Below are positions 4,849 to 33,760 of a stretch of DNA of 39,078 bases, in pieces. The stretch is from Pilibacter termitis (GTDB lineage: Bacteria; Bacillota; Bacilli; Lactobacillales; Streptococcaceae): NCBI RefSeq assembly GCF_900167335.1, contig NZ_FUXI01000025.1, forward strand, positions 1-39,078. The letters run 5' to 3'. Made by a program: the position numbers and the translations under genes. The notes under the pieces are model-generated. The model was given only the letters and a program-made list of their open reading frames with translations. It was not told the DNA's origin and did not search any database. Position 1 is the first letter of the stretch; every line of letters starts with the position of its first letter.

Positions 4849-5421
4849 ATGCAAACAAGGAAAATGAACGTTGGGGAATTAGCTGAAATTGCAATGCTTA
4901 CAGCTTTTTCATTTGCACTAAGTTATATACCCCTTCAAATTGGCAGTGCGTTGATTGACATTTCGCTTGGTTTAGTACCACTTGCGGTGTTAGGGATTCG
5001 CCGAGGGGTGTGGGCAAGTTTGACGTCAGGCTTTATTTGGTCGCTGTTGCTCATTATTTTTGGCAAAGCATTTATACTCAATCTCACCCAAGGAATACTT
5101 GAATATCCAATCGCTTTTACTATGGCAGGATTATTTGGCTTATTTTCAAAAAGTATTTTTGAGAAAAAAGGGAAAAATGTATTTTGCACGATTCTCTGCA
5201 TGGCAATTCTTGGTGTGGGGGCAAGGTGGTTTTGTCATTTTTTAGCAGGAATGATTTTCTGGGCAACCTTTGTTCCAGAACAAAATCCCTTCATCTACTC
5301 ATTTACATGGAATGGCATTAGCTTTTTGCTCAATGTACTCCTTGTTACCACCGTGATTTTCTTACTATGGAATACCTCACCGAATTTGTTTAAAGCAAAG
5401 AGACCAGCCTCTCGTAGTTAG
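4849..5421 (+). CDS. thiT: Thiamine ECF transporter S component ThiT
   Basis: ThiT is the substrate-binding membrane subunit for thiamine and works with the shared EcfA/EcfA'/EcfT module, which is not in this window. The 190-aa protein has about six hydrophobic segments. It also carries the YuaJ/ThiT-like N-terminal ELAEIAMLTAFSFAL and the aromatic thiamine-pocket stretch around GARWFCHFLAGMIFW. The start is the ATG at 4849, eight bases after AGGAGG; the longer upstream reading frame runs through the riboswitch and is not real. The last residues (ASRS) and the TAG stop lie in sequence that matches the right end of a type B repeat, so the native C-terminus was probably replaced by the repeat. 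Confidence 0.93.
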   Translation: MQTRKMNVGELAEIAMLTAFSFALSYIPLQIGSALIDISLGLVPLAVLGIRRGVWASLTSGFIWSLLLIIFGKAFILNLTQGILEYPIAFTMAGLFGLFSKSIFEKKGKNVFCTILCMAILGVGARWFCHFLAGMIFWATFVPEQNPFIYSFTWNGISFLLNVLLVTTVIFLLWNTSPNLFKAKRPASRS

Positions 5422-5618
5422 ACAAAGAAAAGCGTAGAAGTGCGTTTTGAAGTCTGTGGCAGTGAGCCATGCCGTTTACTTGCTACTACACTTTGTTTCG
5501 CATACAGTCTTTCTAAGAATCAAAGATTCTTGAAAGACTAGCATCGAAACTTTCGTTTCGAGCGGCATTGCGAACAGCCACCAGACTTCAGCACTTCGCA
5601 GCTAGACAAAGAAAAGCG
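5411..5618 (+). repeat. Type B structured repeat, long copy with tandem-type ends
   Basis: This fills most of the 327-base gap between thiT and hpt. The outer and middle stems pair as GAAGTGC/GCACTTC and TGAAGTCTG-TGGC/GCCACCAGACTTCA; the inner stem is ATGCCG/CGGCAT. The constant motifs GTGAGCC and GCGAACAG are present. Two extra hairpins (AGTCTTTC...GAAAGACT and CGAAAC...GTTTCG) extend the apex. Right-end-type sequence (TAGACAAAG) is followed by left-end-type sequence (AAAAGCG) on both sides of the unit, as if units had once been joined head to tail. Confidence 0.8.
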
Positions 5619-5748
5619 AGGAAGAAATAGTTTTAGGCTACCTTAAAATTTGTGCGTACGTCTAGTTTTTTTCACTATTTTTTGCTATGATATGGCTTGT
5701 AAAAGTTTTGCAAGACTCAATAGTGATAATTGTGAAAAGAGGAGAACA

Positions 5749-6282
5749 ATGCACCCACATTTAAAGGAAATTTTATTTACACGTGAAGAAATTGAGGCAA
5801 AGGTGCGTGAATTGGCACAGGAAATTTCAGCAGATTATAAGGAAAGCTATCCTTTAGTTGTTGGGATTTTAAAGGGTTCGGTTATGTTCACGACAGATTT
5901 GCTAAAAGAACTTTTGATTGATGTAGAGCTTGACTTTATGGATGTGTCAAGCTATGGAAATGCTACGCAGAGCAGTGGTGAAGTTCGTATTCTCAAGGAT
6001 TTGTCCACACGTGCTGACGGTCGAGATATTTTGATTGTTGAAGATATTGTCGATAGTGGCAACACGCTTCATTATCTAAAAGGATTACTTTTAGAAAGAG
6101 GAGCGAAAAGCGTAAAAATCGTCAGTCTCCTAGACAAGCCAGAAGGTAGAAAAATAGCAATCGAGGCAGATTATGTCGGTTTCACTGTGCCAGACGAATT
6201 TGTCGTAGGTTATGGTATCGACTACGCTGAACGTTATCGTTCGCTTGCCTATATCGGTGTATTTAACCAAGAATTTTTATAA
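5749..6282 (+). CDS. hpt: Hypoxanthine (guanine) phosphoribosyltransferase
   Basis: A purine-salvage enzyme joining hypoxanthine or guanine to PRPP to give IMP or GMP. The 177-aa length is typical. The PRPP-binding motif EDIVDSGNT lies near residues 98-106, and the KGS loop (GILKGSV) and C-terminal [12 protein letters not shown] are those of bacterial Hpt. The start is the ATG at 5749 after GAGGAGAAC; the longer upstream frame lacks a ribosome site. An extended -10 (TGCTATGAT, ending at 5691) probably drives it. In many relatives hpt sits between tilS and ftsH; here it stands alone, with its own terminator. Confidence 0.95.
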
Positions 6283-10269: not shown

Positions 10270-10334
10270 TGAGTGGTGTAAACTAAGATTGCCTCAAAAG
10301 TAAAAATTGAAAACGAGAAACCCAAAACATTTAT

Positions 10335-10489
10335 GGGCACCTCTAAAAACTCCGGTTAAGCCAAAATTAGATAGTTTTTCGATTTTCGAGGAAATCGACG
10401 AAAGCTATGTGGTTCATAGGTTGAGGAGACTGACGAAGAAAGTCGGGAAACTAGCAATTTTGGATAAGCGTGAGTTTTTAGAGGTGCCC
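10335..10489 (+). repeat. Type A palindromic element, complete copy without B
   Basis: Its 155 bases run from GGGCACCTCTAAAAACTC to the inverted GAGTTTTTAGAGGTGCCC. The whole element can fold into one long imperfect hairpin, with a sub-hairpin TCGATTTTC-GAG-GAAATCGA in the left half. The centre reads TTCATAGGTTGAGG without the B insert found in other copies. Flanking bases TTTAT/ATAAA extend the inverted repeat. It lies in the 495-base gap between the WYL regulator and the 40-aa protein gene. Confidence 0.9.
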
Positions 10490-10510
10490 ATAAATTTTGA
10501 CAAAATCCAA

Positions 10511-10695: not shown

Positions 10696-10818
10696 ATGGG
10701 AAATTGGTATGTAGTAGACAATTTTGGCAACACAATCGCAGGACCATTCTTTGATAAACAATCAGCAGAAATGTTTGTCAATGGGAATGATATGTATCAT
10801 GTGGTTTATAAAGATTAG
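10696..10818 (+). CDS. 40-aa protein, copy 1 of 2
   Basis: A small gene starting at ATG 10696, preceded by GAGGAGG. The protein begins MGNWYVVDNFGNTIAGPFFD and ends in VVYKD, with Tyr/Phe/Asn-rich composition. It has no signal peptide or membrane segment. A second gene at 12140 encodes exactly the same 40 residues. The two differ at the start codon and three synonymous third positions, which argues that the protein sequence is under selection. Its stop codon TAG directly abuts a type A element. I do not recognise a family; the YVVDxxGNxIAGPF pattern looks like a short beta-hairpin motif. The neighbouring PD-(D/E)XK gene may be functionally linked. Confidence 0.75.
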   Translation: MGNWYVVDNFGNTIAGPFFDKQSAEMFVNGNDMYHVVYKD

Positions 10819-10973
10819 GGGCGCCTCTAAAAACTCCGCTTAAGACTAAATTAGCTAGTTTTTCGATTTTCGAGGAAATCGACGAAAGCTATGTGGTTCA
10901 TAGGTTGAGGAGATTGACGAAGAAAAACGGAAAACTAGCAATTTAGGATAAGTGCGAGTTTTTAGAGGTGCCC
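10819..10973 (+). repeat. Type A palindromic element, complete copy without B
   Basis: 155 bases, same orientation as the copy at 10335 and about 90% similar to it by eye. The left end is GGGCGCC rather than GGGCACC. Flanks are TTAG on the left and TTAA on the right, a possible imperfect 4-base target duplication. The left flank contains the stop codon of the 40-aa gene. Confidence 0.88.
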
Positions 10974-11001
10974 TTAAGACGGTGTTGTTTGAACGATTGA
11001 T

Positions 11002-12139: not shown

Positions 12140-12262
12140 GTGGGAAATTGGTATGTAGTAGACAATTTCGGCAACACAATCGCAGGACCGTTCTTTGATA
12201 AACAATCAGCAGAAATGTTTGTCAATGGGAATGATATGTATCATGTTGTTTATAAAGATTAG
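12140..12262 (+). CDS. 40-aa protein, copy 2 of 2
   Basis: It starts with GTG at 12140, seven bases after AGGAGG, and encodes the same 40 residues as the gene at 10696. The ribosome-site sequences of the two copies differ, so the similarity is confined to the coding part. It follows the PD-(D/E)XK gene by 20 bases and is probably co-transcribed with it, ending at a good terminator. Function unknown; an antitoxin-like or immunity role next to a nuclease is only a guess. Confidence 0.78.
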   Translation: MGNWYVVDNFGNTIAGPFFDKQSAEMFVNGNDMYHVVYKD

Positions 12263-22687: not shown

Positions 22688-22965
22688 GGCTACTTCTAAA
22701 AATTACGTTTAATGCAAAAAATAAATAGGTTGTTGATTATTGAGGAAATCAACGAAAGCCATGCGGGGACAAGAAAAGCGAGCGGGGCGTTAAGGAGTTT
22801 GTCGCAGTGAGCCATGCCATTTACTTGCCTGAAGCAGAGCTTCAGGTGGCATTGCGAACAGCGACCAAGTTTCAGCCCCTCGCAGCTGGACAAATTTGAG
22901 GAGGCTGACAAAGAAAACCGGAAAACTAGCAATTTTGGCTAAGCGTGAGTTTTTTAGAGGTTGCT
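22688..22965 (+). repeat. Composite type A element carrying a type B element
   Basis: A degenerate A left end (GGCTACTTCTAAAAATTACG) and a good right end (GAGTTTTTTAGAGGTTGC). At the centre, 22769-22894, is a B element whose inner stem ATGCCA/TGGCAT and apical stem CCTGAAGC/GCTTCAGG are intact, with GTGAGCC and GCGAACAG conserved. The middle stem (AAGGAGTTTG/CAAGTTTCAG) is partly decayed. The left B junction reads GACAAG-AAAAGCG, a right-end/left-end fusion as in the 5411 copy. Together with the terminator it fills the 377-base gap before the ATPase gene. Confidence 0.85.
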
Positions 22966-25440: not shown

Positions 25441-25515
25441 GAAAAGCGTAGCGGGCGTTCAGGAGTTGGGATGTTGTGAGCAGTCGCCCAACTCCTGCCC
25501 CTCGCAGCTAGACAA
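25441..25515 (+). repeat. Minimal stand-alone type B element
   Basis: 75 bases: AAAAGCGTAGCGGGC, the stem CAGGAGTTGGG/CCCAACTCCTG, then CCCCTCGCAGCTAGACAAA. It lacks the inner and apical stems, and only TGTGAGCAG remains of the loop motifs. It is 31 bases upstream of the next gene's start, so the element may influence that gene's translation or mRNA. Confidence 0.8.
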
Positions 25516-25545
25516 AAAGAGAAACTTTTAGAAAGCAGTGAACAA

Positions 25546-29140: not shown

Positions 29141-29706
29141 ATGGATTGGAACTATGGAAAAATATGGGCACATCTAAAAACTCCGGTTAAACCAAAATTA
29201 GCTAGTTTTTCGATTTTCAAGGAAATCGACGAAAGTTATGTGGTTCATCAAAAAGCTAAGAGGGGTGTTCAGGAGTTTGTCGTAGTGAGCCATGCTATTT
29301 ACTTGCTTGAAACGAAGTTTCAAGTAGCATTGCGAACAGCGACCAAACTCCTGCCCCTCGTAGCTAGACAAGGTTGAGGAGATTGACGAAGAAAATCGGA
29401 AAACTAGCAATTTTGGGGAAGCGTGAGTTTTTAGAGGTGCCCATATACAAACAAATCCGTAAAGAGAAAGGTTTGACACAAAAGGAAATTTGTAGAGACT
29501 TTACGACTCGTGTGACGTTGTCGAATATTGAAAACGGGAAACACGTTCCTAATTTATTTTTGATAGAATACCTACGTTTTGGAATTTGTACGGAAGATAA
29601 AGAAATGGTCAATCGTGGGATTGAAATTTTAAAACTATCCGAAGAAAAAGAGCAGTTAGCTAAATTAGAATTAGAGTGTAAACGCTATTTTGAAGGTGGA
29701 AAATAA
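29141..29706 (+). pseudogene. Rgg-family regulator remnant, interrupted by a repeat element
   Basis: The gene start (GGGG ribosome site, ATG 29141, MDWNYGKI) is cut after codon 8 by the composite element at 29166-29442. It resumes as YKQIRKEKGLTQKEIC and a Rgg-type HTH (VTLSNIENGKHVP). Removing the element and one ATAT copy restores one continuous frame. Behind the HTH only about 50 residues remain (ending KRYFEGGK), whereas Rgg proteins have about 280-300, so a large internal deletion has also occurred. Two apparent open frames across the element are by-products. Rgg proteins sense short peptides; this one is dead. Confidence 0.8.
29166..29442 (+). repeat. Composite type A element with type B inside, in the rgg remnant
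   Basis: Ends GGGCACATCTAAAAACTCC and GAGTTTTTAGAGGTGCCC, flanked by direct ATAT repeats (29162-29165, 29443-29446). B occupies about 29250-29372. Its outer stem is AGCTAAGAGGGG/CCCCTCGTAGCT and its middle stem CAGGAGTTTG-TCG/CGACCAAACTCCTG. The inner stem is ATGCTA/TAGCAT and the apical stem CTTGAAAC/GTTTCAAG. GTGAGCC and GCGAACAG are present. This copy has one of the most intact folds. Confidence 0.92.
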
Positions 29707-32682: not shown

Positions 32683-32960
32683 GGGCACCTCTAAAAACTC
32701 ACGCTTATCCAAAATTGCTAGTTTCCCGATTTTCTTCGTCAGTCTCCTCAACCTTGTCTAGCTACGAGGGGCAGGAGTTGGGTCGCAGTTCGCAACAGCA
32801 CTGGAAACTTCGTTTCCAGTAAATAAATGCTGTGGCTCACTACGACAAACTCCTGACCGCCCCTCTCCGCTTTTCTATGAACCACATAGCTTTCGTCGAT
32901 TTCCTCGAAAACAAGAAAAACTATCTAATTTTGGCTTAACCGGAGTTTTTAGAGGTGCCC
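32683..32960 (-). repeat. Composite type A element with type B inside, inverted copy
   Basis: Flanked by perfect direct TATA repeats (32679-32682 and 32961-32964). It is in the opposite orientation to the other large copies. B occupies about 32753-32875. Read on the minus strand its middle stem is CAGGAGTTTGTCG/CGACCCAACTCCTG, the inner stem ACAGCA/TGCTGT and the apical stem ACTGGAAAC/GTTTCCAGT, with GTGAGCC and GCGAACTG in the loops. It fills the 317-base gap between the PTS IIB gene and walJ and contributes the G of the walJ stop codon TAG. Confidence 0.93.
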
Positions 32961-33760
32961 TATACTGTAAACAATTCTGTCGGCTCATCATAGCTTGTGT
33001 CTAGCACTTTAAATTGTTCGTTTACCCCAAAATCATGTTGCATTAATACAGTTTCCATTGTCATATGTGCGAGTTCTTTGATATTATTTTCTCGGCTCAA
33101 ATGTCCAAGGAAAATTCGTTTTGTCTTGTCGCCTAAAATATCCGTCATGGCAATTGCTCCGTCCTCGTTTGACAAATGCCCCTCATCGCCTAAAATGCGT
33201 TGTTTCAAATGCCAAGGGTAAGCACCAGCACGCAACATATCTATATCATGATTGCTCTCCATTAAATACGCATCAGCATTACGAATAATTCCACGCATTT
33301 TCTCGCTCACATAACCCGTATCAGTGAGCATGACAAACGACTTATTATCTTTTTGGAAAGTGTAAAACTGTGGTGCAGCAGCATCATGGCTTACGCCAAA
33401 ACTCTCAATATCAATATCGCCAAATGTTTTTGTAATCCCCACCTCAAAAAGATGTTTTTGAGCAGTCGGAATTTCTCCAATGGATTTCGGCATAGCATTC
33501 CATGTTTTTTCATTTGCGTATAAATCAATCTCATATTTTCTTGCAAGCACCCCGATTCCTTTGACGTGATCGGAATGTTCGTGTGTAACGAGTAAAGCAT
33601 CTAAATCACTTGCTTTACGACCGATTTTCCCAAGCAATTCTTCGATTTTTTTTCCAGAAAATCCTGCGTCTACCAAAATTTTCTTCTGTGCTGTTTCAAT
33701 ATAACAAGCGTTTCCTGTTGACCCACTTGCTAAAATACTTACCTTAAATCCATTTTCCAT
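32960..33760 (-). CDS. walJ: Metallo-beta-lactamase-fold hydrolase WalJ (YycJ/VicX)
   Basis: A 266-aa metallo-beta-lactamase-fold protein with the metal motif THEHSDH (about residues 59-65), SHDA and LTDTGYV, and the C-terminal LGHLS. The family (YycJ/WalJ/VicX) is thought to be a 5'-to-3' exonuclease-like protein linked to cell-wall control and DNA repair. In relatives it is the last gene of the walRKHI-J operon; here it is separate, with no walR or walK in view. The stop codon is formed by the inserted element's end; before insertion it would have been TAA at the same place, so the protein is unchanged. Confidence 0.93.
   Translation of the reverse strand: MENGFKVSILASGSTGNACYIETAQKKILVDAGFSGKKIEELLGKIGRKASDLDALLVTHEHSDHVKGIGVLARKYEIDLYANEKTWNAMPKSIGEIPTAQKHLFEVGITKTFGDIDIESFGVSHDAAAPQFYTFQKDNKSFVMLTDTGYVSEKMRGIIRNADAYLMESNHDIDMLRAGAYPWHLKQRILGDEGHLSNEDGAIAMTDILGDKTKRIFLGHLSRENNIKELAHMTMETVLMQHDFGVNEQFKVLDTSYDEPTELFTV

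Follow-up and report, generated by a model that had tools for sequence, protein, structure and literature searches.

Head-to-tail arrays of a high-copy intergenic hairpin family in the genome of Pilibacter termitis

Results and Discussion

The B repeat behind a ThiT-family gene

The window, that is, the whole stretch of DNA that was analyzed, comprises 39,078 nucleotides of the Pilibacter termitis genome. In it a gene of the ThiT family of thiamine transporters (Pfam Thia_YuaJ, E 4.4e-43, residues 11-181 of 190) lies upstream of a long copy of a repeat that is called B here. The region 5405-5624 consists of one complete 184-bp B unit between the 23-bp tail and the about 10-bp head of two other units, all on the + strand. 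The tail (5405..5427), which would be the right end of a lost unit, equals the B right-end consensus at 21 of 23 positions, and the chance expectation of such a match in the window is about 3e-6 when calculated by hand with equal base frequencies. The complete long unit (5428..5611), recognized from its sequence, runs from AAAAGC to GCTAG and is followed by the linker ACAAAG, and it carries at its hairpin tip a 60-bp module (5485..5544) that belongs to long units only and was delimited by removal in silico. The downstream head (5612..5624), the left end of what would be another lost unit, lies by sequence directly behind the linker and is short, about 8-13 bp.

The initial annotation had described head-to-tail joints on both sides of the long copy and at a second copy, and these are indeed present. 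On the left GTTAGACAAAG (to 5427) is followed directly by AAAAGCG (5428-5434), on the right GCTAGACAAAG (to 5611) is followed directly by AAAAGCG (5612-5618), and at the second copy GACAAG (22768-22773) abuts the AAAAGCG that starts at 22774. The tail fragment on the left is longer than first noted as it extends over 5405-5427. Because partial B ends flank the long unit on both sides, we read 5405-5624 as a remnant, probably of a former array of at least three B units that has shrunk to one unit plus its neighbours' tail and head. When 5405-5640 was folded as DNA, the energy was -47.7 kcal/mol (z -5.9 versus shuffles). A scan of 5300-5800 gave two promoter-like sequences (1.1 in shuffles) and one terminator-like sequence (0.3 in shuffles), and these were left unused. 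The ThiT-family gene, whose translation ends RPASRS*, takes its final codons and its stop, a TAG at 5419-5421, from the B tail at 5405..5427. Since the last codons and the stop consist of B right-end sequence, a B repeat seems to have rewritten the 3' end of this gene (5400-5421).

Other B copies and element A in the window

A second palindromic repeat, A, with the ends GGGCACCTCTAAAAACTC, was seen at 10331-10493, 10815-10977, 29162-29444 and 32683-32964, and several A copies are by eye bounded by TA on both sides in a MITE-like manner. Some A copies bear B at one fixed internal site, and for this reason the A+B composites have probably spread together. The A elements at 10331..10493 (+) and 10815..10977 (+) are without B and have the identical empty site CATAG/GTTGAGG, whereas a filled A reads CATAG/AAAAGC...GACAAG/GTTGAGG, and this pair leaves room for a target site duplication of a few bases at most. 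A 122-bp repeat at 10697-10818 and 12141-12262 (98% identical) directly precedes an A element in one copy and not in the other, which provides an empty-site comparison for A.

Two short B units nested in A, at 29251..29367 (+) and, between CATAG and GTTGAGG, at 32758..32874 (-), are without a head-to-tail junction; to their left stands CATCA or CATAG, and the sequence at their right is GACAAG/GTTGAGG. Copies lacking the junction had been regarded in the initial annotation as speaking against a tandem or circular stage. The copies at 29251 (+) and 32874 (-) are of this kind, both lie in element A, and genome-wide the junction is the normal linker. Another short unit nested in A, at 22774..22889 (+), is a probable hybrid by eye comparison of its arms. 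In one of its stem blocks the arms pair only via three G-T wobbles and one mismatch, and its right arm (CAAGTTTC) would pair perfectly with another left-arm variant that is common. It would be a milder candidate intermediate and is not among the strongly unpaired units described below. The GACAAG at 22768..22773 (+) may be a relic of another B right end, and 25442..25519 (+) is by its sequence a B relic from which the hairpin tip is deleted.

Abundance of B units in the genome

A linker pattern, GCTAGACAN{1,5}GAAAAGC, had 314 exact matches in the genome of P. termitis (159 and 155 on the two strands), and the reversed-pattern control had 0. A search of the same genome with the 208 bp of the initial finding gave at least 176 matches. 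With a covariance model built from 46 of the 72 listed non-redundant short units, all 150 candidates scored (of 1969) matched, which gives at least 150 units. Thus, B is a high-copy intergenic hairpin family in head-to-tail arrays, and the joint noted in the initial annotation is simply their usual linker. It had been proposed that B passes through a tandem or circular stage and that other loci be surveyed for complete tandem units. Such units are abundant genome-wide and the tandem part of the proposal stands, whereas none of the analyses here gave evidence of a circular stage.

Complete units were collected in two sets, an array being one or more complete units. Set 1, drawn by similarity to one long unit, came from 35 stretches around the listed 208-bp matches plus the window and contained 118 complete units in 43 arrays. 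Set 2 came from 24 stretches, 23 from the first 100 of the 314 linkers and one from a search with the 60-bp module, and contained 67 units in 25 arrays, so that the total was 185 complete units in 68 arrays. The sets are without partial units, units with N, units of other lengths and the L163 units that overlap L022. The assembly is a draft, and because N runs and contig ends interrupt its arrays, identical neighbouring units may have been collapsed in it.

Structure of the B unit

A B unit runs from AAAAGC to GCTAG and is followed by a linker, mostly ACAAAG, and then by the next unit. Up to GCTAG the complete units, arranged head to tail, are either short (115-118 bp) or long (176-178 bp), and the long unit is a short unit plus the 60-bp tip module, as removal of the module in silico gave the short length in 43 of 43 long units of set 1. 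Each unit forms a hairpin with about 39 pairs. The arms form an imperfect inverted repeat, yet the ends differ (AAAAGC versus GCTAGACAAAG), and from them inwards the pairing covers only columns 4-6 with 114-116 until it is interrupted.

In 46 units with 1794 cells, 97.4% of the cells were paired compared to 82.9% when shuffled and 31-44% when slid. Changes were found on both sides in 27 of the 39 pairs, and counted as sequences and not as events, 319 cells were changed on two sides and 26 (summed by hand) on one side. The coupling of an arm block to its partner from tip to base was 0.91, 0.85, 0.74, 0.55 and 0.48 (Cramer's V), and that between neighbouring left-arm blocks was weaker at 0.57, 0.43, 0.41 and 0.26; the stem blocks behave like nested rings. 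Among the mismatches G-T exceeded A-C only about 2:1 (145 versus 78). Several unpaired internal columns are near-fixed in the 185 units, with A34, A38, T48, T49, G85 and A86 in all 185, A51 and A89 in 184 and G37 in 183. In set 1, 11 of the 118 units had at least 4 of 36 pairs unpaired and are candidate hybrids. In an array on the minus strand (L023, units 1502, 1625 and 1811), which by eye is phase-shifted, the right arm of the first unit fits the left arm of the next unit better than its own left arm.

Placement relative to genes

When the arrays nested in A (9 in set 1 and 1 in set 2) were left out, 27 of 58 arrays started directly behind a co-directional stop codon, compared to 1 of 58 in the mirror control, in which the right end of the array was set against an opposite-strand stop. 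By set, the counts were 17/34 and 10/24 against 0/34 and 1/24 in the control. The array had to start -3 to 12 bp from the stop (0-10 was observed) of a reading frame of at least 80 codons, and the stops ahead of the arrays were TAA, TAG and TGA. Such a one-sided orientation points either to an effect exerted by the transcript or to insertion in a preferred direction. In 8 of 44 regions of set 1 a Shine-Dalgarno-like sequence begins 3-6 bp past the right end.

Edges, cores and the order of units within arrays

Edges were taken as alignment columns 7-16 and 104-114 of 119, and the test of adjacent units used columns 7-13 and 111-114. The edge identity of adjacent units was 0.769 in set 1 compared to 0.705 when shuffled (z 5.7), and 0.791 compared to 0.726 in set 2 (z 3.9). 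Between arrays, with 11 flagged arrays left out, the edge identity by rising bin of core identity was 0.778, 0.775, 0.773, 0.781, 0.767 and 0.799; even where the cores were at least 95% identical it was 0.799 (122 pairs) compared to 0.775-0.778 for unrelated cores. Thus, edges are local to an array and cores are common to the whole genome. Three expectations had been fixed before set 2 was analyzed; the edge rule and the stop-codon rule both held, and the third, avoidance of the same stem class by neighbours (see below), did not clearly hold.

Circles, or whole B units inserting side by side, predict edges that travel with their core, and between arrays they hardly do. This near-independence of edges from cores makes the arrays unlike rows of whole units that jumped in and unlike integrated circles. 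It bears on the explanation that B is a non-autonomous mobile element whose right end recreates the target, whole units inserting side by side, perhaps via circular or tandem intermediates. Such an element would account for arrays that are head to tail, for insertion with a matching empty site as in empty and filled A, and for linkers that can resemble the left flank of the array, as in L042 where GAAACAG occurs in both. We consider it unlikely, however, as the edges hardly travel with the cores and the flanks show by eye no consistent target duplication. Furthermore, a search that covered the Y1 family (IS200/RAYT-type transposases, PF01797) gave no match in the genome of P. termitis (0/1; 98.67% complete), whereas 5 of 14 control genomes had a match, and IS200/RAYT mobilization was rejected.

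In chains of at least three units the order was not random. In set 1 (21 chains) the identity at lag 1 was 0.655 compared to 0.692 when the order was shuffled, and at lag 2 it was 0.735 compared to 0.689 (P 0.000 and 0.002, respectively). In set 2 (10 chains) the corresponding values were 0.677 compared to 0.721 and 0.786 compared to 0.718 (P 0.014 and 0.013, respectively). Within longer arrays the nearest units are therefore less alike and the next-nearest units more alike, although collapse of identical neighbours by the assembler could add to this alternation. Core identity of 0.90 or higher was found in 14 of 59 pairs at lag 2 and in only 5 of 112 at lag 1, and with nearest neighbours so rarely having cores at least 90% identical, plain single-unit duplication was rejected. 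An early claim that neighbours avoid the same stem class when compared to unrelated units was weakened by set 2. In set 1 the core identity of nearest neighbours was 0.663 versus 0.708 for unrelated units (z -4.0), with the M3 class shared by 8/72 versus 27% and the M2 class by 15/72 versus 43%, whereas in set 2 it was 0.682 versus 0.696 (z -1.0), with M3 in common in 7/40 versus 28% (21% when only pairs with core identity below 0.80 are counted) and M2 in 17/40 versus 44%; for the first pairs of chains the count was 6/20. In the two-unit arrays of set 1 the core identity was no different from that of unrelated pairs (0.702 versus 0.708, 12 pairs). The contrast between neighbours and unrelated units is therefore not robust, and it is the alternation in longer arrays that stands.

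How the arrays may arise

The explanation that we favor by a small degree is local duplication, often in two-unit steps, together with ectopic core exchange in which the second arm is re-templated. Both exchange and re-templating are deduced from sequence patterns in a single strain. Slippage or unequal exchange would lengthen and shorten the arrays locally, often by two units at a time, and identical nearest neighbours would be lost fastest. Stem blocks would be replaced by those of hairpins elsewhere in the genome through ectopic exchange, after which template switching within the hairpin would copy the first arm onto the second. In this model the edges would be similar and the two-unit periodicity would appear because of duplication and loss at the linkers, the cores would be common genome-wide because stem blocks exchange with other loci, and the changes would be two-sided because one arm is copied from the other. 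Template switching that creates and maintains hairpins has been published, as far as the excerpt of the source goes (PMC8794818). Pure arm-to-arm copying would erase the near-fixed unpaired columns, and therefore selection on structure must act too. From the fixed internal loops and from how the arrays are oriented with respect to genes, it seems that selection also acts on the transcribed hairpin, perhaps because it forms a structure at the 3' end of the mRNA.

That long stems stay paired while their sequence changes is an old puzzle, and it is usually ascribed to slow compensatory evolution. The B units could likewise be structured RNAs, either stabilizers of the 3' UTR or terminators, that evolve by ordinary compensation with no need of exchange. 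The strong covariation, the near-fixed internal loops, the excess of G-T over A-C and the arrays behind stop codons in one orientation all agree with this. We nevertheless find it rather unlikely, since 319 two-sided versus 26 one-sided cells leave little room for G-U steps, and cores that are nearly identical turn up in different arrays whose edges are unrelated; both observations suggest that blocks are shared. With duplication, exchange and re-templating as the preferred reading, one genome offers hundreds of stem variants in natural series, with hybrids that resemble intermediates, and the exchange and re-templating model is thereby open to direct testing.

It is also conceivable, although quite improbable, that recombination or integration takes place at the linker and that, much as in the arrays of CRISPR or integrons, each core enters a slot while the linker is duplicated. 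Linkers and edges that are similar within an array and cores that are common across the genome would be expected from such slots, but the breakpoints do not look fixed, and in pairs with identical inner blocks M3-M5 the identity of M2 was only slightly raised (0.764 versus 0.687). A related reading, which we regard as speculative and improbable, is that the arrays are hairpin cassettes with linker-bounded slots, whose cores are moved by a putative structure-specific recombination together with arm-to-arm copying. If true, the genes would have behind them different stems drawn from a set that is exchangeable across the genome.

Comparison with known repeats

Known repeats of this kind include palindromic intergenic repeats, mosaic BIMEs, BOX and EFAR, and we place the B arrays with them as a variant. 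The integron attC sites, or Vibrio cholerae repeats, are imperfect palindromes of about 120 bp that keep one orientation along their arrays; B differs in that there are no cassettes between the hairpins and the edges stay with the locus. The EFAR repeats of Enterococcus are palindromic small repeats, mostly of about 170 bp, with length variants of interchangeable sequence types. EFAR, from a related group, and B are both palindromic small repeats, and EFAR is not known to form head-to-tail arrays with local edges. In the excerpt of one source EFAR is named as a MITE (PMC3733652).

According to excerpts of two sources (PMC3733652, PMC2817692), REPs are high-copy intergenic palindromes of 20-40 bp that are clustered in mosaic BIMEs with alternating orientation, changes in their arms are kept complementary, and their ends supply TAG stop codons to genes. 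B is alike in being a high-copy intergenic palindrome with kept complementarity and an end that gives a stop codon, and differs in its length of about 117/177 bp, in its head-to-tail order and in that no Y1 transposase, the cognate RAYT enzyme of REPs, was found. The BOX elements of Streptococcus are, in the excerpt of a third source (PMC3049150), modular with tandem inner modules, vary in size between strains and provide the stop codon in 36 genes. In BOX, boxA and boxC enclose boxB modules in variable number, whereas the repeated units of B are complete hairpins, and the order boxA-boxB(n)-boxC was not seen in B, where every member of an array is a full hairpin of a single type and has the same ends. 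In a literature search, the titles and beginnings of abstracts held no description of such hairpin arrays, which is no proof of absence.

B-like arrays in other genomes

By GyrB the window lies nearest to MAGs of Streptococcaceae and Lactobacillales (86% at best), which are presumably of termite-gut origin, and Enterococcus is next. In DNA searches, in which few candidates were scored per genome and diverged relatives would escape, 2 of 147 genomes of the family matched B, namely P. termitis itself and one genome with a 24-bp match in the 60-bp module only. Among 395 genomes of the order only P. termitis matched and the 394 others had none (two candidates were scored among the matches listed), and there was none in the other genome of the genus, which is 59% complete. 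Of 395 genomes of the order, only that of P. termitis had the exact pattern of the 60-bp module, with 66 copies. No match was found that would indicate spread of B by plasmids or phages; 32 stretches of IMG/VR had one 17-mer match each, which is taken as chance by assumption. In Rfam, 4 stretches with B or its relative matched no family at E up to 0.1.

By its coordinates the 24-bp match falls in G149 (Hs463_bin101), which was evidently outside the sample of the order. This genome has its own hairpins of 117-120 nt, some of them head to tail, with 6 exact joints (control 0) compared to 0 in 7 other genomes, and two of its stretches (L205 and L208) have by eye two stem types side by side. Its 60-bp module is similar, yet it lies within one arm and not at the tip. 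The module (CTACACTTYGTTTCGCATACAGTC...stem...GACTAGCAT), seen at L124 1501-1560 and at 5485-5544 of the window, is thus carried by hairpin repeats of two lineages, in which its flanking sequence is conserved and its own stem differs. The covariance model, with 150 of 541 candidates scored, missed the units of G149, so that the case for their kinship with B is made by eye from the common module and the architecture.

In 8 related genomes the covariance model gave one match, in G151 (UW_MP_STREP2_1; E 3.4e-7). Comparable arrays thus exist in two other lineages, so that more than one assembly shows the arrangement, while the kinship of the three hairpin families is only partly shown. It is highly improbable that the arrays are false ones, produced when a short-read assembler joined similar repeats. 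The N runs and contig ends in the arrays could be seen as signs of such an artefact, but the arrays lie between different reading frames, their edges are locus-specific and head-to-tail units occur in the two other assemblies as well. The match in G151 is the middle of three consecutive palindromic stretches with two head-to-tail joints, GCTGGATTATGT followed by AAAAAGCTGAGA. The outer two have 91% of their first 47 bases in common; the first, of about 280 bp, is much longer, and the third is without the usual right end and has a weaker fold (z -8.3 and -3.9). This diverged relative (L209, 1219-1745) has its three palindromic units in the order a-b-a.
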